Positions 41,891 through 60,430 of a stretch of 64,000 nt of DNA are shown in pieces. The stretch lies in contig NZ_FNZR01000006.1 in NCBI RefSeq assembly GCF_900109365.1, positions 124,001 to 188,000 on the forward strand. The letters are read 5' to 3'. Under the pieces are notes generated by a model. That model ran no database searches and was not told the origin of the DNA. It saw nothing but the letters and a program-made list of their open reading frames with translations. The translations under genes were made by a program, and so were the position numbers. Within the stretch, counting starts at the first letter, position 1. Every line of letters begins with the position of its first letter. The stretch is from Parapedobacter koreensis. Lineage in GTDB: Bacteria; Bacteroidota; Bacteroidia; Sphingobacteriales; Sphingobacteriaceae.

Positions 41891-44362
41891 CTATTCATCG
41901 CGCAGGCTATCAACCGGTTTGGCTATAGCTGCCCGGATGGCCTGCCATCCTACGGTCAACAAAGCAATCGTTATTGCTGTCAGTCCTGCCAGGGCAAACA
42001 TCCACCATTCCATATTGATGCGGTAGGCAAAGTCTTGCAGCCATTCATACATGGCCCACCAAGCCAGGGGCGTGGCAATAAGGAGCGCAATCGCAACCAA
42101 CTTCAGGAAACCCGTGGACAATAGGGCCACGATGCCCATTACGGATGCACCTAATACTTTTCGGATGCCGATTTCTTTGGTGCGTTGGAAAGCCGTAAGG
42201 GTAGCTAGCCCGAAGAGGCCGAAGCAACTGATAAGGATGGTGATGATCGTAGCCAAGTTAATGAGCTTACCGATTTGTCGCTCCTGCTTATACATCGCTT
42301 CCAATGTTTCGTCGTAAAAATGGTATTGGTAGGTATCTGAAGGATAAAACATGGCCCATTTTTGACCGATTGCTTTTAACGTCGCCTGCCATTGGGCAGG
42401 GCTATTGCTATCCAGTTTGATGTTGAAGGAAGAGAGGTTTCTTTTATAAGTTGATAATACCGTCGGTGTGATCGGTGTATAAAAATCCTGGGTGTGGAAG
42501 TCCCTGATGACGCCAACGATGGGGTAATTGTTAGTCCCCCGTTGCCCGATGAACTGCCCGATAGCCGCTTCTGGGGTGGCGAATCCGAAGGCTTTGGCGG
42601 CGGTTTCATTGATGATAAATTCGGAAGTGGTGTCCGAGGCATGGATGTTCCGGCCTGCCAGCAGTTCCATCTGGTATAACGTCAGGTAAGCGGTATCGAT
42701 TGTTTTTTTGAAACTGATGATTTCCACGGGATCTTTCCCTTCGGGCGCGTATCCAAACGGGCTGGACGAATAGCCTGACGACAGCGGAGCGGTACCCATG
42801 GCCACTTGATCAACCCCTGGCAAGTTGCGGAGTTCGCCAAGTAGCGCAAACTGCTTATCTTGGTAACGGGGATCGGAAAGGTATTTCCAGGGTACATTCA
42901 CCAATACGATGGCGTCTTTGTTGAACCCCATATCGGCTTTTAGCGTATGGCGCAATTGCGCCCCCACGATGATGGTGCTAATGATAAATACAAGGGCGAT
43001 GGTGAATTGGAAAACGATGAGCACCTTTTGCAAGCTGAATCGGCGTTTCGTAGACGACGTCGCAAAAAAGTTCTTGAAAACATTGACGGTTTTTACTTTC
43101 GTAATCAGCCAGCCCGGATAAAGCCCCGCCAATAGCGTGATGAGCACGACCAAGCTGAGCATGAAGCCAATGAGCAGGAAGATGTCATCTTCCGGGGTGA
43201 CACCCACGGGGATGATATCATCCAAAATCCAGAAGGCCAATCGGCCGAGACTGAAGGCCAAGACCGATGCCACCAAAGCCGTCAGGAGCGTTTCGCTCAG
43301 AAACTGGCCGATCAGCTGCCAGGTACCTCCGCCGAGGGTTTTCCGCACGCCGATTTCCTTGCCCCGCTGCGGAATTTGTGCGACGCTCATGTTGATGTAA
43401 TTGATGCAGGCAAGGATGAGCAGGAAAATGCCGATACCAATCAGTCCATACAATACGGGCTTGCTCGTTTTGCTTGCGTTTGCACCATCAGACACAGTGG
43501 TAGCGAAATGGGCGTCGCGGATAGGAAGCAGTTCATAAGATCGGACGCGCGATAGCGCATTGGTATTCCCTGCGTTTTTCAATTTTTCTTCAAAGGCTTT
43601 CCAGTGGCGGGCATCCAGTTCGTTGATCTGGCCCAGTTTAGCGCTGACATCCGTCCCGTTCTGAAATTGCAGGTAAAGCTTGTCGCTGCCGTTGGTATTC
43701 GTCCACATATTTGCTTCGTATGCTGTTTTTGGCAAGACGAAAAACTCCTGTGCTGTAAATTCCGACGGCGTATAATAGTCGGCCACGATTCCCGTTACCG
43801 TCCGCGTCACGGTATCCTGTCCGTAATAGGTAATAGTTCGTTGGAGCATATCTGCCGATTTGGCACCCGGGAAATATATCCCAGCCCGGCTTTCGGTAAG
43901 CACCACGCTTTCCGGAGCGTTGAGGGCGGTCCGTTTGTCTCCGGCCAGCCACGTGTATGGAAGCATGCTAAAGTAAGTCGCATTGGTGGCCACAATGTGA
44001 ATGGGGTCTTCCTGAATAAAGGGGGCTTGGTTTTCCCGTTTGATTTCGAGGGTGTTAACCCATTGCCCGTATACCGGCACCACAGATTCCACTCCTGTAA
44101 TCTCTTCTTCGATACCTTGATACAGCGGGGCCGATACCCCGCCCATCCTGGATTCCTTGCCTTCCCGGTTGAATGCACTGATGACCTTGTAGATGCGTTC
44201 GCTGTTGGGCAATTGGGCATCGTAGCTGAATTCAAAGTCGATGATGCGGTAGATGACCCAACAGGCACTGATGCCGATGGCCAGACCGAGGATATTCAGC
44301 GCGGTGAAAAGGCGATTGCGCCACAGGTGGCGAAGGGTGGTTTTGAAGTAGTTCTTTATCAT
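41891..44362 (-). CDS. ABC transporter permease, double MacB/FtsX type (array copy 7)
   Basis: An 823-aa protein with an N-terminal span (about 20-40), a periplasmic MacB-like core, an FtsX permease module with PQRGKEIGVRKTLGGGTWQL, then a second periplasmic core and a second FtsX module with FQRTKEIGIRKVLGAS. It ends ...SLRDE like its paralogs. MacB/FtsX proteins couple cytoplasmic ATP hydrolysis to mechanical work in the periplasm, often export or envelope stress response; the partner ATPase is not encoded in this window. Last gene of the 49386-41891 segment. Confidence 0.93.
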   Translation of the reverse strand: MIKNYFKTTLRHLWRNRLFTALNILGLAIGISACWVIYRIIDFEFSYDAQLPNSERIYKVISAFNREGKESRMGGVSAPLYQGIEEEITGVESVVPVYGQWVNTLEIKRENQAPFIQEDPIHIVATNATYFSMLPYTWLAGDKRTALNAPESVVLTESRAGIYFPGAKSADMLQRTITYYGQDTVTRTVTGIVADYYTPSEFTAQEFFVLPKTAYEANMWTNTNGSDKLYLQFQNGTDVSAKLGQINELDARHWKAFEEKLKNAGNTNALSRVRSYELLPIRDAHFATTVSDGANASKTSKPVLYGLIGIGIFLLILACINYINMSVAQIPQRGKEIGVRKTLGGGTWQLIGQFLSETLLTALVASVLAFSLGRLAFWILDDIIPVGVTPEDDIFLLIGFMLSLVVLITLLAGLYPGWLITKVKTVNVFKNFFATSSTKRRFSLQKVLIVFQFTIALVFIISTIIVGAQLRHTLKADMGFNKDAIVLVNVPWKYLSDPRYQDKQFALLGELRNLPGVDQVAMGTAPLSSGYSSSPFGYAPEGKDPVEIISFKKTIDTAYLTLYQMELLAGRNIHASDTTSEFIINETAAKAFGFATPEAAIGQFIGQRGTNNYPIVGVIRDFHTQDFYTPITPTVLSTYKRNLSSFNIKLDSNSPAQWQATLKAIGQKWAMFYPSDTYQYHFYDETLEAMYKQERQIGKLINLATIITILISCFGLFGLATLTAFQRTKEIGIRKVLGASVMGIVALLSTGFLKLVAIALLIATPLAWWAMYEWLQDFAYRINMEWWMFALAGLTAITIALLTVGWQAIRAAIAKPVDSLRDE

Positions 44363-44427
44363 TTTTTAGCTAATAGAGATTAGACAACAGGCCTTTCTAT
44401 GCCCTTAGTGTCTCGTTATTATGCGAT

Positions 44428-46851
44428 TTACTCATCACGCAAAGCGTCTACGGGGTTCGCGCTAGCCGCCTGTACGGTACGGATACAAAGTACCGCCACT
44501 GCGACAGCTACCATGCCGAGGGCTGCACCTGCAAAAATCCACCAATTCAGTTCCGTATGAAAGGCAAAGTCCTCCAGCCATTTATTCATGAAATACCAAG
44601 CGATGGGAAATGCGATCAAACATGCAATGATGACGAGCGCTACAAGATTACGCAGCAAAAGCACCACAATTTGAGTTACCGTTGCACCCAATACCTTACG
44701 GATTCCGATTTCTTTCGTCCGTTGGTTGGTCGTAAAGATGGCCAGTCCAAACAGGCCAAGGCAGGCGATGAATATGGAGAGCCCCATGGCCCAGCTAAGC
44801 AATTGGGACAATCGGATGTCCTGCAAATAGAAGTTCTCCACGGTCTTGTCAAGGAACGTATAGTCGAAGTCATTTTCAGGATATAATTCTTTGAAGATTC
44901 CGGTCATCTTTTCGATGGCCGTTTTCCACGCCTCGGCATGGTCGGGGTGGAGCGCCACGTGCACCACATAACCAAAGGTTTTTTCACCCCAATACATCGT
45001 GGGCTGTATCGGTGTCCGTACGGAGGCAATATTGAAATCTTTCATCACCCCCACGATGGTATACTGCCCTTTGCCAAACGTTTTGCCTAAGGCTTCTTCT
45101 GGATGAGTAAGCCCCAAGAGGCCAACCATCTTCTCGTTGATGAGCGCCTCATGCGTGGAGTCAAGCAGCCGGATGTTGCGTCCGGCCACCAACGGAATTT
45201 CATAGACGTCTAAATAAGCGTCGTCCCCGCTCCTGCCATTGAATGTCACCCGTTCGGTGTCCTCGCCCTTGTCAAAACTCATGGTATTGGTCATGGATCC
45301 ATTGAATGCCGGCGATTGGTTGCCTAAGCTGGCGGCCTTTATTTCCGGAATCTGCTTTAGTTTGTCCAGCAATACGAATTTTTTGCCGTCTGTCCAATTG
45401 GTGAAGTTCGGGATATAAAAATTGACAATGGCATCCTTTCGGAATCCCATATCCTTGATGGTTGCGAAACGGATTTGTTTGCCCACCACGAGTACGCAAA
45501 TCAAGAAAACCTGGGCAATGGCAAATTGTGATATCGTGAGGCTTTTACGTATCCAGGCGCTTCTCGAAAAATTAGTGTTCTTATGCGCTTGGTTCTTTAA
45601 TGCCAATGCGGGTTGGTAACCCGTCATTACCCATGCGGGGTAGCATCCTGCAAGCAGGGTGATAACCACCAACTGGATGGCGAGGAAAGCGAGAATATGC
45701 AGCTGGCCCAAGCCTTCGTATGCCAACCCTTTGGGCAGAAAGCCCTGGAAAGCATGGAAAAGGAGCGGAGCTAACAGCATAGACAGCAACGTCGCTCCCA
45801 GTGATAAGACAAAGGTTTCCGAGAGAAACTGCAACACCAAAGCGACCTTGCCGCTACCGAGGCTTTTGCGGATGCCAATCTCCTTGGCCCGCTCAATGGA
45901 TTGAGCTGTGGAAAGATTGATGAAATTGATAGCCCCAAGCAGCAGCAAAAAGATGGCGAGTAGTGCCAAATTGCGTAATGTGGATGGTTTTGCTGCCGAA
46001 TAGTTGTAATCAGCATTGAAGTGGATATCGCTGAGTGGTTGCAAGGAAAATTGCTCAGGTTTTTCGCCCGGTTCGGATTTCTTGTGTTTTTGGATAAGCG
46101 ATGCAATGCCTGATTCGACGGTTTTTGCACTTGTTCCGGTTCCGAGCAGCAGCAGGCATTGGTAGGAATCGTTCAAATTATTCCATGCTTCCCAATTGTA
46201 AAGTTCTTTAAGGCTTTCGCCCGTGGGGATAGTCGCCGTGGAAATGAAGACATGGTTGTCAAAGTCTGTATTGGCTGCGATATCAGCCACTACGCCCCCC
46301 ACTTCCAGCAGTACGGTATCATGCACCAAGAGCGTTTTGCCCAGTACAGTCTCCGGTGTGTTATCCGGGAAATATTGGGCCAACTTACTTGCTGTAATCA
46401 CGACCCGGCTGGGGGCATCGAGGGATTGGGCATTACCCGATAGCCAATGGTACGGGAAGATGCTGAAATAATCGGGGTCGGTAAAAACGATGCCACGTTG
46501 TTTTTTGTGGATGCTGTTATCGCCACGGTTATCGTGCGGGACAATTACCGTCGGGTCGTTGGTGTTTAGCTGATACACAGGTGCCACGGCTTCCAAACCG
46601 GCAAGCTCTTCGTCGACGGCACGGACTAAGGGTACCAGTACGCTGGCCGACTTCCATTCGCCGCTGCTGACTACCCGATATACCCGGTCGCCTTCGGGAA
46701 TGTGCTTGTCAAAGCTGTAATCGTACCGAATCATGAGGTAGATAACCAAGGTGGCGCTGATGCCGATGGCCAAGCCCAACACGTTGATGACGGTAATCAA
46801 TTTGTGTTTCCAGAAGTGGCGCAGTGCGATTTTGATGTAGTTCTTTATCAT
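44428..46851 (-). CDS. ABC transporter permease, double MacB/FtsX type (array copy 6)
   Basis: An 807-aa paralog with the same layout: span near 20-40, periplasmic core, FtsX module with IERAKEIGIRKSLGSGKVAL, second core, and a second FtsX module with NQRTKEIGIRKVLGATVTQI; C-terminus NPVDALRDE. The bases after the stop (TAAATCGCATAATAACGAGA on the minus strand) resemble those behind copies 3 and 5. It lies 65 bases from copy 7 and 120 from copy 5. Confidence 0.93.
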   Translation of the reverse strand: MIKNYIKIALRHFWKHKLITVINVLGLAIGISATLVIYLMIRYDYSFDKHIPEGDRVYRVVSSGEWKSASVLVPLVRAVDEELAGLEAVAPVYQLNTNDPTVIVPHDNRGDNSIHKKQRGIVFTDPDYFSIFPYHWLSGNAQSLDAPSRVVITASKLAQYFPDNTPETVLGKTLLVHDTVLLEVGGVVADIAANTDFDNHVFISTATIPTGESLKELYNWEAWNNLNDSYQCLLLLGTGTSAKTVESGIASLIQKHKKSEPGEKPEQFSLQPLSDIHFNADYNYSAAKPSTLRNLALLAIFLLLLGAINFINLSTAQSIERAKEIGIRKSLGSGKVALVLQFLSETFVLSLGATLLSMLLAPLLFHAFQGFLPKGLAYEGLGQLHILAFLAIQLVVITLLAGCYPAWVMTGYQPALALKNQAHKNTNFSRSAWIRKSLTISQFAIAQVFLICVLVVGKQIRFATIKDMGFRKDAIVNFYIPNFTNWTDGKKFVLLDKLKQIPEIKAASLGNQSPAFNGSMTNTMSFDKGEDTERVTFNGRSGDDAYLDVYEIPLVAGRNIRLLDSTHEALINEKMVGLLGLTHPEEALGKTFGKGQYTIVGVMKDFNIASVRTPIQPTMYWGEKTFGYVVHVALHPDHAEAWKTAIEKMTGIFKELYPENDFDYTFLDKTVENFYLQDIRLSQLLSWAMGLSIFIACLGLFGLAIFTTNQRTKEIGIRKVLGATVTQIVVLLLRNLVALVIIACLIAFPIAWYFMNKWLEDFAFHTELNWWIFAGAALGMVAVAVAVLCIRTVQAASANPVDALRDE

Positions 46852-46913
46852 TTTTTAGACATTAGACAACAGACTTGCCCATCCTTGTTCTTTGCTCTTT
46901 TCATCCTTGTTCT

Positions 46914-46937
46914 TTATTCGTCGCGCAGCGAGTCCAT
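46914..46937 (-). pseudogene. Leftover permease C-terminus (MDSLRDE and stop)
   Basis: On the minus strand, ATG GAC TCG CTG CGC GAC GAA TAA reproduces the conserved permease ending DSLRDE followed by a stop, just 30-odd bases after the real stop of copy 5. It looks like a scar from recombination between paralogs. Confidence 0.65.
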
Positions 46938-47007
46938 CCCGATATGCATCGGGATCTCGCTATTACGCGATTTACTCATCGCGTAAAGACTCGACCGGAT
47001 TGGCCAG
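46933..47007. repeat. 75-bp repeat at the 3' end of permease copy 5
   Basis: Identical to 55499-55573 except one base. It covers the last 11-12 codons of the permease, its stop, about 20 further bases and the palindrome CCCGATATGCATCGGG. The genes are clearly diverged just beyond 47007. Confidence 0.9.
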
Positions 47008-49386
47008 TGCAGCCCGCAACGACTGTGTGATCACCGTGGCGAGGGCAACCAGCAGTACGATGGCGCCCCCAAGGATCAACAGCCCCGCATTGACGTCTAT
47101 GCGGTAGGCGAAGCTCTCCAGCCACTTATTGGCTGCCCACCAAGCTACCGGTGCACCGATGACGAAGGCAATGCCCACCATCTTGATGAAATCACGCGAT
47201 AGCAACACGATGATGCCCGCTACGCTGGCTCCCAGCACCTTGCGCACACCGATTTCCTTCACCCTCCGGTTGATGGACAGCAGCGCGATGGCAAACAGCC
47301 CCATGCAGGAGATGAGGATGGCCAGGGTAGCACCGCTGATGATGATGTTAGTAAAACGTTGGTCACGTCGGTACTGATTGTCCGTATTTTCATCGAGGTA
47401 CGAGGCTCCATCTGTGGCTCGCGGGTTTACCTTCTTCCATACGGCTTCCACGGCGGCGAGCGACGTAGCCAGGTTTTCCGGCCTTACCTTTACGAAGAGG
47501 TATTCCAGTGGAAATTCATTGGGATTAATAAACATCGTCAGTGGCTCAATCTGTTGCCGTAAGTCCTTGAAGTTGTAATCTTTCACCACACCGATGACCT
47601 GCATGCCGTCATTGACGGGGATAGTTTGCCCTAAGATTTTATCGATGCCACCCAATTGGGCAGCCATCTGTTCGTTGATGAGCACGGCATTCGTATCCGT
47701 GGCAAAATCACGGGAGAAATCCCTGCCAGCCACCAGTTGGAGATCCAATGTGCTGAGGTAATCATAATCTACACGCAGCCAATGCGTACGGATGGTACGG
47801 TCTTCATAGCCAAAGCCAACGCGCGAGGTGGCTGCCCCGCCATCGCTGCCCCGGCCGATATTGATGTCCGAGCCGCTCAGGCTTTCTACCTGCGGGAGGG
47901 AAGCCAATTCCGCCCGCATGCGTTTCAGCGCGGTTTCCTTATCGATCTCGTCGCCTATAGGAATGCTGATGACCTCCGTTTTATTGAACCCCAGCGGGCG
48001 GGTGTGGAGGTAATGCAGTTGGCTGCTCATCACCAAGGTGCCGATGATGAGCACCACGGCGATGGCAAATTGCACTACAGTGAGCGCGCTGCGCAGGCCA
48101 CCACCCGCGTTGAGCTGCAATTTGCCTTTCAGTGTTTGGATAGTGTTGATACGAGCCATCAACCAAGCGGGGTATCCTCCCGAGATGGCTGTAAGGAACA
48201 GGAACGTCGCGAGAAATAGGGGGAGGTTCCATCCGGCAAACAGTTGGCTGATGGCCAGCGAGTAATTCATATTCGCGTTGTATTGCGGCAGCAGCGCCCA
48301 TGCCAATAATCCACCCAGGGTCAAGGCGAAGAGACATACCAGCAGCGATTCGCCCCACAGTTGGGCCATCAGCTGCCAAGGGCGGCCGCCCAATGTCTTA
48401 CGCATGCCGATTTCCCGGCTGCGGGTGAAGGAACCAGCCAAAGAGAGGTTTACGAAGTTGGATCCGGCGATAAAGAGGATAAGGGTGGCAATGAGTAGCA
48501 GCATCCAGGGGAACATCGGTGGTCCGCCGCCACCGATGCCCAGGCTGTTTAAGTGATATTCTCCCATGGGCAGTACGTGCAGCGCCAGGTATTCTCCGTG
48601 TTCATCGGGGGAAGCCCCATCGCGTTTCAGGTTCGCAATTTCCCCTTCGTAGTGTGTGGCCATGAAGGGCCTTGCCTGTCTATTGAAAGCCACGGGATCG
48701 AGTTTATCGCCCGCCCATTGGATGAATACGCTGTGGTTGGCATGGCCCCAATTGTCCAGGTAACCCTGGTAATCCGGCATCATATGCTCAAAGCGCAGGA
48801 GCGTATTGAACGTGAGGCTGGAGTTTTGGGGGAGGATGGTCGTTACTGCCGTGACCACCTTGCTCTGCCATTGCCCATTTATTTGGGCTTCAATGGATTC
48901 CCCAATCACGTCTGTATGGCCGAAAAGGTTTTTGGCCATGGTCTCGCTGATAACGATGTTGTCCAGTGCATCCAGGGCGGAGGCATTGCCGTGTTGCAGC
49001 GAGAAGCTAAACATGTGCAGGAAATCGGGGTCTACAAACCGAGCCGCCGCCACAAACTGCTTGTCGCCATGGCGGAGTATAGCTGCCCCGTTCCCGAATC
49101 GGCTCATCCGTTCCACAGCGGGGATCTCGGCTTTCAGCGTGGGGCCGAAAGGAATGGGTTTCGTTTCCCCATATTCTTTTCCGGTGGTGGGATTAGACAC
49201 GTCATAAACCATTCCGATGCGGCCTCGATTTGCGTGGAAATCATCGTATGACAATTCAAACATCGCCGTGAGAAACAGCAGTATAGCAGCGGCAAAAGCC
49301 ACGCTCAGGCCGAGGATATGGATAGTGGTGAATACCTTGCGCTTGCGTAGGTTGCGAAGGGTAACAACGATGAAATTTTGAAGCAT
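46972..49386 (-). CDS. ABC transporter permease, double MacB/FtsX type (array copy 5)
   Basis: An 804-aa paralog starting MLQNFIVVTLRNLRKRKVF. The first FtsX module carries FTRSREIGMRKTLGGRPWQL, the second NRRVKEIGVRKVLGASVAGI; C-terminus NPVESLRDE. It is the first gene of the second array segment and has its own upstream region with a palindromic regulator site (49469-49486) and a weak sigma-54-like promoter. It is divergent from the barrel gene at 49595. No ATPase domain. Confidence 0.93.
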   Translation of the reverse strand: MLQNFIVVTLRNLRKRKVFTTIHILGLSVAFAAAILLFLTAMFELSYDDFHANRGRIGMVYDVSNPTTGKEYGETKPIPFGPTLKAEIPAVERMSRFGNGAAILRHGDKQFVAAARFVDPDFLHMFSFSLQHGNASALDALDNIVISETMAKNLFGHTDVIGESIEAQINGQWQSKVVTAVTTILPQNSSLTFNTLLRFEHMMPDYQGYLDNWGHANHSVFIQWAGDKLDPVAFNRQARPFMATHYEGEIANLKRDGASPDEHGEYLALHVLPMGEYHLNSLGIGGGGPPMFPWMLLLIATLILFIAGSNFVNLSLAGSFTRSREIGMRKTLGGRPWQLMAQLWGESLLVCLFALTLGGLLAWALLPQYNANMNYSLAISQLFAGWNLPLFLATFLFLTAISGGYPAWLMARINTIQTLKGKLQLNAGGGLRSALTVVQFAIAVVLIIGTLVMSSQLHYLHTRPLGFNKTEVISIPIGDEIDKETALKRMRAELASLPQVESLSGSDINIGRGSDGGAATSRVGFGYEDRTIRTHWLRVDYDYLSTLDLQLVAGRDFSRDFATDTNAVLINEQMAAQLGGIDKILGQTIPVNDGMQVIGVVKDYNFKDLRQQIEPLTMFINPNEFPLEYLFVKVRPENLATSLAAVEAVWKKVNPRATDGASYLDENTDNQYRRDQRFTNIIISGATLAILISCMGLFAIALLSINRRVKEIGVRKVLGASVAGIIVLLSRDFIKMVGIAFVIGAPVAWWAANKWLESFAYRIDVNAGLLILGGAIVLLVALATVITQSLRAALANPVESLRDE

Positions 49387-55248: not shown

Positions 55249-55280
55249 TTTTTTAGACGTTAGACAACGGACATTAGACC

Positions 55281-55359
55281 GATTGAAGTGATTGCAGACG
55301 AAAACTAGGAGACGGCAGCGAAGCGAACCGAATCCAGTTGAGGAGCACCCGCTTGAATC
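55281..55359. repeat. REP-like 79-bp element, first copy
   Basis: Left end GATTGAAGTGATTGC (55281-55295); right end GCACCCGCTTGAATC (55345-55359), a decayed inverted partner. Bases 55278-55347 match 55387-55456 with two differences over 70 bases. Confidence 0.8.
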
Positions 55360-55389
55360 CTCCATCCCATTACTATCCCCAATCCCACC

Positions 55390-55468
55390 GATTGAAGTGA
55401 TTGCAGACGAAACCTAGGAGACGGCAGCGAAGCGAACCGGATCCAGTTGAGGAGCAATCACTTCAATC
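55390..55468. repeat. REP-like 79-bp element, second copy
   Basis: Perfect 15-bp terminal inverted repeats, GATTGAAGTGATTGC (55390-55404) and GCAATCACTTCAATC (55454-55468), enclose a 49-base centre containing CGGCAGCGAAGCGAACCGG. Too short to code. A fragment of the same end (ACCGATTCAAGCGATT) lies at 57998-58013, next to the next intergenic gap. Confidence 0.85.
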
Positions 55469-55479
55469 ATCTACTACCA

Positions 55480-55503
55480 TCACTCATCCCTCAATGACTC
55501 CAT
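55480..55503 (-). pseudogene. Leftover permease C-terminus (MESLRDE and stop)
   Basis: The minus strand reads ATG GAG TCA TTG AGG GAT GAG TGA: ESLRDE plus stop, the conserved permease ending, 35 bases after the real stop of copy 3. Codon choice differs from the 46914 remnant, so the two derive from different lost 3' ends. Confidence 0.65.
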
Positions 55504-55573
55504 CCCGATATGCATCGGGATCTCGCTATTACGCGATTTATTCATCGCGTAAAGACTCGACCGGATTGGCCAG
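55499..55573. repeat. 75-bp repeat at the 3' end of permease copy 3
   Basis: Partner of 46933-47007 with one mismatch. It includes the end of the coding region, the stop and the CCCGATATGCATCGGG palindrome, which on the minus strand can form a hairpin behind the gene. Confidence 0.9.
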
Positions 55574-57943
55574 CGCTGCTTTAACAGCTTGCCAACCCAC
55601 TGTCAGCAAGGCTATAGCCACCGCGGCCAACCCCGCTAAGCCAAACATCCACCATTGGACATCGATGCGGTAAGCAAAATCTTCCAACCATTTGTTCATC
55701 ACCCACCATGCGATGGGGGATGCAATGAGCACGGCTATCGCAATGAGTTTTACAAAATCAGTCACCAAAAGCCGGATAATGTTGGTTACCGTTGCACCCA
55801 ACACTTTGCGTATGCCGATTTCTTTCGTACGCTGGTAAGCCGTGAACGTAGCCAGTCCGAACAACCCAAGGCATGCGACGAAGATGGTCAGTCCCGCAAA
55901 GACGCCCAGGATAGTACCCGTATTCCTTTCCGCTTGGTAAGTATTGTTGATCCGTTCATCTAAAAACGAGTAAGCAAAAGGCAAATCGGGATTGAGTGCG
56001 TCATACCGTTTTTCCATGGCTTGGAGCAAGCCCGCCATATCCCCCGGACGGGCTTTCACAATGAGGTTGCCGAAGTTGTTGTTCATGGTCATCACCAAGG
56101 GCGTTATTGATTCGCGCAGGGATTTGAAGTGAAAATCCTTTACTACGCCTACCACCCGTATGTGCTTGTTGTCGCCATTGACCAGCGTCTTTCCCAAGGC
56201 GTCGTCCGTCCATCCGAATGCCTTGGCGGCTGTTTCATTGATGACCGCATTCAAAGAATCCGTGCCATAGTCAGCCGAAAAATTACGGCCAGCCAGTAGT
56301 TCGATACCCAAGGTGGGGATATAGTGCTCGTCTACATCATAACGTAGTGTTTTGACCCATTGGGAAGGATTGTCCTCAGAATGGACAAAAAAGTTATTGT
56401 CATATGTGGGGCCAGCGGGTACGTAAGGCGAGTTCGTCACATGAAGCACACGCGGATCCTGCAGTAGTTGTTGCCTGAAAATGCTCTCCTGCTGTCCCAA
56501 GGGCCATGTTTGGAGTACGATGACCTGCTCCTTGTCATATCCCAGTTTTTTATGCTGGATGTAATCAAGCTGCTTGTATACCACCGTGGTACAGACGATG
56601 AGCGCAATGGAAATCAAGAATTGGAAGACCACCAGTCCGCTCCGTAGCTCAAGTCCTTTATGGTGAGGGGTGAGTTTTCCCTTCAGCACTGCTACGGGCT
56701 TGAAAGCAGCCAGGAAAAACGCGGGGTAGCTTCCGGCCAATAGACCTACCGCCAGTCCGCCTAACAGCAACGATGGCACTATCCACCAATGGCCGAATAG
56801 ATCAATGGTCATCGTTTTACCCGAGAGCTGGTTGAAAAGCGGCAAAGCCGCATAGGCCAGTCCGATGGCCACCAGCAGTGCAACTAAGGTCAGTAAAAGG
56901 GATTCCATGAGAAATTGGAAAGTCAGTGCTTCACGCCCCGAGCCAAGTACCTTGCGCACACCCACCTCCTTGGCCCGTCGGGAGGCACTGGCTGTGGCCA
57001 AATTCATAAAATTGATGCTGGCAATGAGGAGCATGAACAAGGCGATGGCACTAAAGATATATACATAGCGGACATCGCCCGGAGCGCTCAGGTCGTTGGT
57101 AAAATCTGAGTGCAGGCGGATGTCGGTGAGCCGCTGGAGGTGCAAGCCGATGTCGTTGCCTGCCTTCCGGTGTTCGGTGTAGGTCATGCCAAAGGCCGCC
57201 GGAAATTGTGGGCCGGCATATTTTTCAAATAATGCCGGTAGTTTGGCTTCCACGGTCTTGTAGTCGGTGCCGTGGCGGAGCACGGCATAAGTATTAAACC
57301 CGGATTCCATCCATGAATTGGATTTGGCATTCGGATAGCTGGCCATGGAGGCGAATAGGTCAAAATGGATGTGTGAGTTGAGGGGCAGGTCTTCCACGAC
57401 CCCTGTCACCTTTAGTGGGGTATTATCCGCTTTTATGATCAATTCCTTGCCTACTGCATCCGTGGTGCCGAAATATTTCCGGGCGGTTTTTTCCGTGAGG
57501 ATTACCGTATAAGGTTCAGTAAGTACGGTCTCCGGATTGCCATGAAGCAAGTGAAAACTGAAAACCCGGAAAAAGTTGGCATCTACAAAAGCCAGCTCCT
57601 CTTCATTGAAAGACTGGTTGGCGACCAAAAAGAAAGGCCTCCCTCCCTGTACGAGGCGCGTGGTTTCTTCTACCTCGGGAAATTCCGCTTGGATAGCCTG
57701 TGCCGTGGGTGGCATCACATTAGCTTCTTTGATTTCGCCACCCGGAACCGTGCCGCCGAATACTATGCGCACGATACGGTCGGCTTTCTCGTGAAAGCGG
57801 TCATAGCTCCATTCGTCAAACACGAATAAACTGATGAGCAGGCAGGTCGCTATTCCTATGGCCAAGCCCACGATGTTTATCGCAGCAAAGGCCCGTTGCC
57901 GTAGCATGCTGCGTAGGGCGGTTTTAACGTAGTTCTTTATCAT
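55538..57943 (-). CDS. ABC transporter permease, double MacB/FtsX type (array copy 3)
   Basis: An 801-aa paralog starting MIKNYVKTALRSMLRQRAF. First FtsX module SRRAKEVGVRKVLGSGREAL, second YQRTKEIGIRKVLGATVTNI; C-terminus NPVESLRDE. The last codons and downstream hairpin are shared almost exactly with copy 5. It is 78 bases from copy 2 and probably co-transcribed with copies 1 and 2. Confidence 0.93.
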   Translation of the reverse strand: MIKNYVKTALRSMLRQRAFAAINIVGLAIGIATCLLISLFVFDEWSYDRFHEKADRIVRIVFGGTVPGGEIKEANVMPPTAQAIQAEFPEVEETTRLVQGGRPFFLVANQSFNEEELAFVDANFFRVFSFHLLHGNPETVLTEPYTVILTEKTARKYFGTTDAVGKELIIKADNTPLKVTGVVEDLPLNSHIHFDLFASMASYPNAKSNSWMESGFNTYAVLRHGTDYKTVEAKLPALFEKYAGPQFPAAFGMTYTEHRKAGNDIGLHLQRLTDIRLHSDFTNDLSAPGDVRYVYIFSAIALFMLLIASINFMNLATASASRRAKEVGVRKVLGSGREALTFQFLMESLLLTLVALLVAIGLAYAALPLFNQLSGKTMTIDLFGHWWIVPSLLLGGLAVGLLAGSYPAFFLAAFKPVAVLKGKLTPHHKGLELRSGLVVFQFLISIALIVCTTVVYKQLDYIQHKKLGYDKEQVIVLQTWPLGQQESIFRQQLLQDPRVLHVTNSPYVPAGPTYDNNFFVHSEDNPSQWVKTLRYDVDEHYIPTLGIELLAGRNFSADYGTDSLNAVINETAAKAFGWTDDALGKTLVNGDNKHIRVVGVVKDFHFKSLRESITPLVMTMNNNFGNLIVKARPGDMAGLLQAMEKRYDALNPDLPFAYSFLDERINNTYQAERNTGTILGVFAGLTIFVACLGLFGLATFTAYQRTKEIGIRKVLGATVTNIIRLLVTDFVKLIAIAVLIASPIAWWVMNKWLEDFAYRIDVQWWMFGLAGLAAVAIALLTVGWQAVKAALANPVESLRDE

Positions 57944-57979: not shown

Positions 57980-58021
57980 TGTTTCTCTCCCCAATACCAC
58001 CGATTCAAGCGATTACATGAT

Positions 58022-60430
58022 TTACTCATCGCGTAAAGATTCGACCGGATTGGCCATTGCTGCTCGAATTGCCTGCAAGCCGATGGTTGCCAAAGTAAGG
58101 GCCAGCGCCATCAGGCCCGCAGCAGCAAACATCCACCATTCCATGGCTATCCGATAGGCAAAATCTTCCAGCCACCTATTCATGGCCCACCACGCGATGG
58201 GCGAAGCGATGATGACCGCTATTCCTATTAACTTCACAAAATCCTTGGCAAATAAAGTTACGATACTGGCCACCGTGGCACCCAGTACCTTCCGGATACC
58301 AATTTCTTTGACACGTAAGCTGATTGCATGTACGATGAGTCCAAATACACCCAGCGCTGCCAACGACATGGTAAGCAGGCTGAATAGCCGAAAAAGCTCC
58401 TGGAGTTTTTCTTCAGCTTCATATTGCTTAGCCAATGTCTCCTTGACAAGTTGCATGTCCAATAATTTTTCAGGATACAGATCGTTCCATGTGCCAGCTA
58501 TAGTACGCATGACTCGACGCTCCGCTCCGGCTCGGCTGCGGATGAGCAGGGATCCGTATGATGGATTACGATAACCGACAATCAATGTAGGTACGGTTGC
58601 TTTATGCAGCGATTCGCTGTTGAAGTCTTCTACAATGCCTACCGGTATGGCATTGACCTCATGAAATGGCTGGTTCAGCCTATCATCGCCCAATAGATGA
58701 GCCGTGCTCGCCGTCATGAGACAAGGGCGCAACGCGTTGTCTTCAGCTTCGAAATTTCCCGCATCAATGGCGTCCCCCGGTTTGGAAGGGTCAAGAAAAC
58801 GACCTTTTTGTAATCTCAATCCCAAGGTTTCCGCCATGTTGGGTTCACCATCGATATACCAGACTTCCACTTTCTTACTCGGGTCACGAGGGTCTTCGAT
58901 AGTCCTTACGATAGTCCCTGCACCATCTGTAGGCAGCCAATTGCTAAAGCTCAAGGAAAGGATGTCGGGATTTTTCGCCAATTCGGCTTTCAGTGCGTTG
59001 GACTTATTATCCCAAGAGACATGGTTGATGCTGAGCAAGCCTTCGGTATCAAAGCCCACATCTTTCGTTTTGAGGAAATCTACCTGCTGTTGCACGGCCA
59101 GCATGGCCACCAGGATAACGATGGATAGGACAAACTGTAGTACCACCAGCCCTTGGCGCAACCCGCCTTGGCTAGCGCCTTTACCTTTCAACACCTGGTT
59201 GATATTGCCCACCGCACTAAAGCCAGCTACCAGCCATGCCGGATATAACCCACTGAATAAGCAAACGGATAGAAAAACCAGGCTAACACATGCGATGTAG
59301 GACCATCCTTCGCCAAAGCTAAAAGCAAGGGGATGTCCTATGAATCTTTGCAGCGAAGGGAGGGCAAGCTGATAGCATAATAATGCGATACAGCCTGCTA
59401 TGCTAAAGGTGAGTAGCGATTCAATCAGTGATTGGGCCATAATGTGTCGCCGAGATGCGCCCAGTATTTTGCGAACCCCCGTTTCTTTTATCCGGCTGTT
59501 TGCACGTGCCGTGCTCAAATTGATATAATTAATGCACGCAATCAATAGCAGTAAGATGGCCACCGCCGAAAGGATATAACTATGCTGGATGTTGCCCTTG
59601 ACAGGTTGGTAAGCGGGGAAGTTGGTTTTCAGGTAGATGTCTGCCATGGGTTGCAGGGCAAATTGCATGGTCTTGTCTGCTTCGGTGAAATCCTGATACC
59701 ACTTGTTTATCTTCTGTTCAAATGCTTGCGGGTCAGTTCCTTTGCGTAGCAGGATATAGTGTCTTGCATACATCCTCCCAGCACGGTCTTTGTTAAGATC
59801 CCATTCTTTCCGCTCGCTGAGCAAGATCATGTCGGCCCGCAAATGGGTGTTCGTGGGAATGTCTTTCATGACACCGGCTATGACGTATTCATTGGCTTTT
59901 TCTTCATAATTGGGTACGTCGTAGAAGCGTTTGCCCAGCGGATTCGTGTCCGCAAAATGCGTCTTGCCGAACTGTTCAGAAACAATGACTTTCTTGATAT
60001 CTCCGGCTGGAATGAGATCTTCTTGAGCGATAAGGTTGATATCCAACACGTGCCGTACCGCAGTGTCCGCATACAGCATAACGGCATTCAGTGGAGATGG
60101 GTCTGCTTTGTCGATTTTTAAATGGATTGGTGCGGGATAGATTTCGCTGTAATCCACCACTTCCGGAAAGATACGTTTTAGCGTGGGAGCAAGCGCAGCG
60201 TATACCGTCCCTCCTTTTTCGGTATAATCCCCGCCGTCACGCCGGATGGAAAGCAACCGGTACGTATCGGCCGAATGGCTCCAATGCTTGTCATAAGACA
60301 ATTCGTCAAATACCACGGTGCCAATCAGTAAGCAGGCTGTGATGCCCAAGGTAAGGCCTAAGATATTGATCAGGGTATACAACCTTCCCTTCAACATCGT
60401 GCGAAAAACAAGCTTTATATGATGGGGCAT
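58022..60430 (-). CDS. ABC transporter permease, double MacB/FtsX type (array copy 2)
   Basis: An 802-aa paralog starting MPHHIKLVFRTMLKGRLY. First FtsX module NSRIKETGVRKILGASRRHI, second SLRVKEIGIRKVLGATVASI; C-terminus NPVESLRDE. It is 30 bases from copy 1, so the two must share a transcript. It is more diverged from the others in its periplasmic domains. Confidence 0.93.
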   Translation of the reverse strand: MPHHIKLVFRTMLKGRLYTLINILGLTLGITACLLIGTVVFDELSYDKHWSHSADTYRLLSIRRDGGDYTEKGGTVYAALAPTLKRIFPEVVDYSEIYPAPIHLKIDKADPSPLNAVMLYADTAVRHVLDINLIAQEDLIPAGDIKKVIVSEQFGKTHFADTNPLGKRFYDVPNYEEKANEYVIAGVMKDIPTNTHLRADMILLSERKEWDLNKDRAGRMYARHYILLRKGTDPQAFEQKINKWYQDFTEADKTMQFALQPMADIYLKTNFPAYQPVKGNIQHSYILSAVAILLLLIACINYINLSTARANSRIKETGVRKILGASRRHIMAQSLIESLLTFSIAGCIALLCYQLALPSLQRFIGHPLAFSFGEGWSYIACVSLVFLSVCLFSGLYPAWLVAGFSAVGNINQVLKGKGASQGGLRQGLVVLQFVLSIVILVAMLAVQQQVDFLKTKDVGFDTEGLLSINHVSWDNKSNALKAELAKNPDILSLSFSNWLPTDGAGTIVRTIEDPRDPSKKVEVWYIDGEPNMAETLGLRLQKGRFLDPSKPGDAIDAGNFEAEDNALRPCLMTASTAHLLGDDRLNQPFHEVNAIPVGIVEDFNSESLHKATVPTLIVGYRNPSYGSLLIRSRAGAERRVMRTIAGTWNDLYPEKLLDMQLVKETLAKQYEAEEKLQELFRLFSLLTMSLAALGVFGLIVHAISLRVKEIGIRKVLGATVASIVTLFAKDFVKLIGIAVIIASPIAWWAMNRWLEDFAYRIAMEWWMFAAAGLMALALTLATIGLQAIRAAMANPVESLRDE

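Follow-up and report, generated by a model that had tools for sequence, protein, structure and literature searches.

Two paralogous permease genes in the 64,000-nucleotide window, which spans C11:124001-188000 of the 5.55-Mb Parapedobacter koreensis genome, end in a 58-bp palindromic gene-end cassette that was almost certainly inserted with replacement of the gene end. The best explanation overall, to which we give a probability of roughly 55%, is that this palindromic cassette has spread between paralogs by homology-directed copying. Eight permease ends of the array on this contig carry it, each with an older gene end stranded behind the new one.

Anatomy of the gene-end cassette

On the minus strand, copy 5 ends in the codons GAG TCT TTA CGC GAT GAG TAA (ESLRDE-stop, with the stop at 46972-46974). 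After 37 bases the strand spells, in a different frame, a second end, GAC TCG CTG CGC GAC GAA TAA (DSLRDE-stop, 46914-46934). The sequence-only reading had described this succession of ends exactly, placing the second about 35 bases behind the first; its 40-bp spacer between the two C-termini is really 37 bases long. It was equally exact on the 75-base match between copies 5 and 3 (46933-47007 against 55499-55573, with the single mismatch at 46975), and the leftover ESLRDE-stop that it reported behind copy 3 is present at 55480-55500. The idea of a pasted 3' module that leaves old ends behind holds insofar as the module sits on different paralogs with the old ends stranded, although eight ends are involved and not two. 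Likewise, the label of a recombination scar is apt for the addition of a module, but what was added is a 58-bp insertion with six codons of its own and not a swapped 3' end. The features concerned are the following.

46972..49386, minus strand: copy 5, FtsX/MacB-type permease gene, 804 aa, cassette host (ORF; Pfam MacB_PCD and FtsX)
46936..46993, minus strand: 58-bp inserted cassette of copy 5 (46935-46992 fits equally; phase ambiguous over about four bases)
46972..46992, minus strand: new coding end GAGTCTTTACGCGATGAGTAA (ESLRDE-stop) of copy 5, supplied by the cassette
46963..46986, minus strand: hairpin A of copy 5, 9-bp stem, 6-base loop holding the new stop codon
46936..46955, minus strand: hairpin B of copy 5, ATCCCGAT-GCAT-ATCGGGAT, at the cassette's right edge
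46914..46934, minus strand: displaced old end GACTCGCTGCGCGACGAATAA (DSLRDE-stop) of copy 5
55538..57943, minus strand: copy 3, FtsX/MacB-type permease gene, 801 aa, second cassette host (ORF; Pfam)
55502..55559, minus strand: 58-bp inserted cassette of copy 3 (phase ambiguity as in copy 5)
55529..55552, minus strand: hairpin A of copy 3
55502..55521, minus strand: hairpin B of copy 3
55480..55500, minus strand: displaced old end GAGTCATTGAGGGATGAGTGA (ESLRDE-stop), 3' of copy 3
57980..58051 (C11:181980-182051), minus strand: partial cassette match, left half, without displaced end, behind gene 58022-60430
44362..44457 (C11:168362-168457), minus strand: partial, diverged cassette match behind gene 44428-46851

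When the flanks of copies 3 and 5 are joined without the insert, an in-frame NPV(D/E)SLRDE-stop results, and the other six carriers agree with these two in spacing and coding. The insertion site is the junction of the Val and Glu/Asp codons in the conserved NPV(D/E)SLRDE C-terminus, occupied at 8 of the 35 ends of the array. The cassette brings its own last six codons (ESLRDE), a stop and two hairpins. Because new and displaced ends stand 58 bases apart in all eight carriers, the insert measures 58 bp, a length unaffected by the phase ambiguity.

The host permease array

When C11:124001-298000 was searched with a C-terminal motif, 35 permease ends came up, all of them minus-strand and lying from 165.9 to 289.8 kb; three further NPT(K/R)SLRDE genes at C11:311626-317983 are left out of this count. 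The array occupies about 126 kb (C11:165891-292119) and consists of same-strand FtsX/MacB-type permease genes with regulators and unrelated genes interspersed. Both Pfam domains, MacB_PCD and FtsX, scored above the curated cut-off in the four window proteins scanned. Ten further proteins or fragments all contained FtsX and nine of them MacB_PCD, the exception being a 510-aa fragment, which brings the totals to 14/14 for FtsX and 13/14 for MacB_PCD (remnant 229098 was left out of these scans). Named by the C11 coordinate of their stop, the eight cassette carriers are 170972 (copy 5), 179538 (copy 3), 223483, 229098, 259123, 271716, 276926 and 283746. Seven are intact and 229098 is the 3' remnant of a gene; in the surrounding stretch, C11:228400-234160, a permease gene is cut down to about 60 3'-end codons, cassette included, with short ORFs adjoining. 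Carriers share 38-43% protein identity in the pairs listed.

Edges of the insert

Compared column by column, the eight carriers agree with one another between about AATCC(A/G)GTC and GGGAT(G/C)GA, with free variation outside. Over the last 27 coding bases, pairwise identity is 0.91-0.97 among the eight carriers versus 0.62-0.87 among 14 cassette-less genes, a set from which 13 left-half or borderline ends, sorted by eye, were excluded (8 + 14 + 13 = 35). Over the following 36 bases the two ranges are 0.85-0.95 and 0.31-0.33. Farther upstream, carriers and cassette-less genes show similar identity. The left flank of carrier 276926, AATCCAG, is found at 6 of the 35 own ends and is common to its orthologue in genome G005; because the two share it, the left edge falls after AATCCAG. 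The right junction is confined to the same four bases in 8/8, and no displaced end of a donor was brought along.

The phase of the insert is ambiguous over about four bases. All 8 carriers have GTC as the Val codon ahead of the new end, as do 6/14 cassette-less genes, and the base preceding the displaced GA is G in 7/8 carriers. GTG is the Val codon of 3/14 cassette-less genes of this genome versus 12/14 in P. luteus. Because GTG is found in only three of the own genes, this G may belong to the insert, and we have withdrawn the claim that the insertion point lies inside the Val codon. On inspection, the cassette termini show no matching inverted repeats; a duplication of one or two bases (GA, for example) is indistinguishable here from a shared codon. 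Four of the eight carriers, each a different gene, share one and the same spacer sequence. We considered and rejected a coding role for the spacer: one frame is open across it in the seven intact carriers, but most of the differences between copies are, on inspection, amino acid replacements, and the constant spacer length is for this reason read as shared descent.

Displaced ends and orthologues

The displaced ends read as genuine former gene ends. All eight encode (D/E)SLRDE-stop, with variable columns much as in native ends. The mean number of differences per 21 bases is 5.54 for displaced ends and 5.46 for the native ends of the 14 cassette-less genes, versus 1.07 for the new ends. In a simple star-shaped neutral simulation of matching divergence, the probability that 8/8 ends still code after silent divergence is about 3e-9. 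Inspection showed that the displaced ends of 223483, 179538 and 283746 continue into sequence types that stand directly behind the only end of other genes. In carrier 271716 the serine codon is AGT in the displaced end, AGC in the luteus orthologue and TCT in the new end. Across 10 pairs, similarity to orthologue ends is 15.2/21 bases for displaced and 15.4/21 for new ends, with 4293 of 10000 permutations as high, so that this comparison does not tell the two classes apart.

None of 10 orthologue ends in congeners (six carriers, 69-88% identity) has an intact second end. The closest named orthologues of copy 5, from P. luteus (88%), P. tibetensis (78%) and P. pyrenivorans (77%), are all single-ended; tandem ends shared by ancestry, which the sequence-only reading had named as its refutation, were thus sought in these relatives and not found. 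The module is absent from the congener orthologues of five carriers (170972, 259123, 271716, 276926 and 283746). Copy 3 (179538) calls for a caveat. Its luteus orthologue has a left-half module with a partial hairpin, and because of this module-like end the gain at the copy 3 locus may be older. For carrier 223483 the best match in the stretches compared reaches only 39%, without a close orthologue.

We placed the carriers on a FastTree phylogeny of 81 permeases, which has long branches and omits the last 12 residues; three short proteins, remnant 229098 among them, had been dropped from the original 84 rows. The seven intact carriers require 7 changes on this tree (shuffled mean 6.8, with 500/500 shuffles as low), or 6 when only own-genome rows are labelled. 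Four carriers (170972, 179538, 223483 and 259123) each fall into a starred set that also contains congener rows, and the other three (271716, 276926 and 283746) are each paired with a congener row at 100. Given the 7 (or 6) changes, together with the 0/10 orthologue ends that have an intact second end, the gains in different paralogs were largely independent.

Distribution of second ends and modules

Of 84 permease ends, 9 are followed by a second end within 90 bases, and the distance is exactly 37 bases every time. By genome these are 8/35 in the own array, 1/10 in G001 and 0/39 in G003, G004, G005 and G007 combined. No second ends occur in 252 downstream control windows (a few of which may be clipped by stretch ends) or in 84 opposite-strand windows, which indicates that they are not due to chance. 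None was present at 25 further gene ends in 15 named loci; three of these loci belong to Parapedobacter species and include ends that the counts above already cover.

With a 94-bp query, blastn hit the own genome at 24 places, all of them permease 3' ends; 22 are on C11, and C12 and C16 have one each. A pattern search for hairpin B (ATCCCGANNNNNNTCGGGAT) hit the own genome 8 times, each time at a permease end, versus 0 for the reversed control pattern. Elsewhere, G007 has one hairpin match away from permease ends (on C45), and only one of three exact hairpin sites in G066 is at a permease end. We built a covariance model from nine sequences and ran it on 201 genomes drawn from the family, of which 8 gave a total of 33 matches. 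The own genome accounts for 18 (8 full, 10 partial or diverged), G001 and G066, the latter of another genus, for 5 each, and G004, G007, G026, G080 and G176 for 1 each. The G176 match is a hairpin that is not at a permease end; the remaining matches are at permease ends, as judged by motif or earlier end lists, with L095 in G066, on a short frame remnant, assigned by eye. Two of the G066 copies keep an intact displaced end (KSLRDE; ESLRDG). The G001 copies are diverged and their hairpins largely still pair. Related modules are found behind permeases in at least one other genus.

At C16:100797-103291, two adjoining permease genes have 31 identical end bases. Behind one of them stand a hairpin and a displaced end that has decayed to DS-stop-RDE. 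The identity of this left end to the neighbouring gene's end over 31 bases suggests local conversion over an old cassette. The same identity weakens the case for a second module subfamily comprising the C16 and G026 copies.

Other repeats in the array

A second repeat is found behind permease genes. It has a conserved core, CTGGATCCG...GCTTCGCTGCCGTCTCCTAGG, and variable, mutually complementary arms whose pairing is, on inspection, mostly kept. This GGATCC-type core occurs at the following places.

Window 55278-55362: second repeat
Window 55387-55471: second repeat
C11, behind 241163, 243686, 246462, 287112 and 289753: second repeat

The same repeat is present in P. tibetensis, P. pyrenivorans and G005 loci. 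A third 3' module, TTTTCAGCAGTAGGCTATAAGCAATAAGCCTAAAGC, stands directly after the TGA stop, on C11 behind 210939, 213398, 220931, 261626 and 264051; a sequence beginning TTTCAGC and resembling it lies 3' of the P. luteus copy 5 orthologue. Short repeats of the GTCTGTTGTCTAATGTCTAAAAAATG type precede the start codons of several array genes (46854-46882 in the window, and others on C11). At C11:256457 the 3' flank is a hybrid, in which the left part of the cassette is joined to an apparent right half of the GGATCC palindrome, as if fused by deletion.

Pairing and folding of the hairpins

In all eight own copies the strand forms both hairpins, A with a 9-bp stem, in which 259123 has one mismatch, and B with an 8-bp stem and a 4-base loop. 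Among 13 sequences, 96.3% of pair cells hold standard pairs and 5 of 17 pairs have changed on both sides, versus at most 45.6% and 2 pairs in slid controls. The shuffles ignore relatedness, and because related sequences inflate such scores, this covariation supports selection on hairpin pairing but does not prove it. The mean folding z is -3.62 for the eight carriers, and -0.31 both for 15 other own ends and for 60 random stretches. It is -2.4 for seven GGATCC-palindrome ends and -1.08 for five third-module ends; since these other palindromic modules also fold well, the folding signal is not special to the cassette. A search for intrinsic terminators (hairpin plus T run) found 0 sites on 46400-47400, and Rfam gave no match up to E 0.1 on window positions 40000-64000, so it is the pairing that argues for a function in RNA. 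We suggest tentatively, at rather less than even odds, that the hairpins have such a role, protecting or insulating message 3' ends within the same-strand run of genes.

Comparison with known systems

Elements that replace the 3' end of a gene are known from prophages and islands with integrases. As described in PMC11148124, e14 in E. coli K-12 is inserted in the C-terminal codons of icd and supplies a near-synonymous C-terminus that leaves the frame intact, with the old icd C-terminal segment stranded on the far side. The cassette is similar in having a replacement C-terminus on one side and a displaced native end on the other. However, e14 is a cryptic prophage with an integrase gene in a single host gene, whereas the cassette is 58 bp long, gene-free and present in eight paralogs. 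Unlike integrative elements, it has no integrase between its ends, which are separated by 37 bases only in 8/8.

CGTC-tagged REP elements seem to be without a dedicated transposase (PMC3733652). As in the elements described there, hairpin B has an 8-bp stem starting with AT, a 4-base loop and a short tail. It differs from that description in being preceded by CGAG (five copies), TAAG, TGAG or GGAG rather than by the tags CGTC, TGTC or CCTC, and in having the tail GGA (seven copies) or CGA (one copy) rather than CCA. Moreover, those REPs are described as dispersed, whereas hairpin B is in 8/8 cases at the ends of one gene family, accompanied there by hairpin A and the replacement codons. A GTC-tagged form (5-base loop, up to 2 mismatches) gave 9 matches versus 12 for the reversed control in 9 genomes and is not enriched in the genus. 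The MITE-like repeats RPE, ERIC and RUP are, according to PMC2229807, about 100-200 bp long, intergenic as well as intragenic and mostly bounded by terminal inverted repeats, and their copies within genes are fused in frame. On that description, the cassette resembles them in being small, non-autonomous, strongly base-paired and inside genes, and differs in that it swaps the protein end for an equivalent one. The cassette is assigned neither to e14-type integrative elements nor to the CGTC REPs, and a literature search of limited terms and partial coverage met no description of the 58-bp module.

Mechanism of spread

We consider the chances about equal for and against the cassette having spread by short homology-directed copying between paralogs. 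It would pass from an occupied to an unoccupied paralog by ectopic gene conversion or template switching. In the donor, the new end lies to the left of the cassette and the displaced end to its right, both being versions of the target. Because the cassette sits between these two versions, the single end of a naive paralog could pair with both flanks, and the copied tract would be the insert alone. The event would be close to neutral because the protein end is unchanged, and the displaced end would then be free to decay, as in partial copies. With less assurance, the hairpins may be retained since they would shield or insulate each message at its 3' end.

The module is found only with permease-end homology on both sides, which favours such homology-dependent copying. 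Ordinary gene conversion is expected to leave more ragged edges, and with uniform edges and no donor tail, which form the chief argument for an enzyme, a site-specific enzyme fits at least as well. In that case a putative trans-acting recombinase or transposase would insert the 58-bp unit around the conserved target AATCCGGTNGA, much as integrases place prophages in the 3' ends of genes. The unit would be a mobile micro-element that targets one codon boundary in a single gene family and heals its own insertion with the replacement codons and stop that it brings; it would have been active recently in the array of 35 ends, with relatives known from at least one further genus. The junction, identical within about four bases in 8/8, would suit this, as would the two hairpins, one of them at the edge of the unit, and the occurrence of a related module in G066, which is of another genus, at these same codons; the four identical spacers in four genes point to recent activity. 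On the other hand, the Y1_Tnp (RAYT/IS200) profile, positive in 5 of 14 control genomes, had 0 matches in the own genome, which leaves no candidate enzyme of this kind and rules out mobilisation by the RAYT/IS200-IS605 route, and hairpin B and the 94-bp query are confined to permease ends in this genome. We regard both the enzymatic route and this characterisation of the element as doubtful. Still less probable is descent from an integrative element that once sat in a permease 3' end and shrank to the present 58 bp, the remnant later being copied among paralogs. This would follow the same logic as e14 in icd, where a near-synonymous C-terminus is supplied and the old one displaced (PMC11148124), but the ends of intact copies are just 37 bases apart, and no long element was noticed on reading the array stretches.

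Selection instead of transfer bias would explain the prevalence of the module if it were a selected RNA element, a 3'-end stabiliser or attenuator, which is compatible with the main explanation. The covarying hairpins and the carriers' folding z of -3.62, versus -0.31 for other own ends and random stretches, agree with this. It is nevertheless rather unlikely, given that the GGATCC-palindrome (-2.4) and third-module (-1.08) ends fold well too, that there is neither an Rfam match nor a terminator-like tail in the stretches scanned, and that 10 further own-genome matches are partial or diverged. Finally, the likeness of first and second ends at the protein level could mean that tandem ends were inherited from an ancestor or were produced gene by gene through local duplication, with no transfer between genes. 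However, spacer and new end are near-identical in carriers with 38-43% protein identity, congener orthologues of five carriers are without the module, the tree speaks against it, and the displaced ends are diverse yet coding. We therefore give this reading next to no weight; it is refuted for those five carriers, though not for 179538, 223483 and remnant 229098 taken alone.

The cassette is a miniature version of a known kind of 3'-end replacement, only 58 bp long and repeated within a large paralog array, and its stranded old ends are a built-in record of separate events. If copying between paralogs is the true mechanism, the array would serve as a naturally occurring assay for ectopic recombination that involves a heterologous insert; were an enzyme responsible, the cassette would be an exceptionally small site-specific element. 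By either mechanism, the last codons of these permease genes do not simply descend together with the remainder of the gene.
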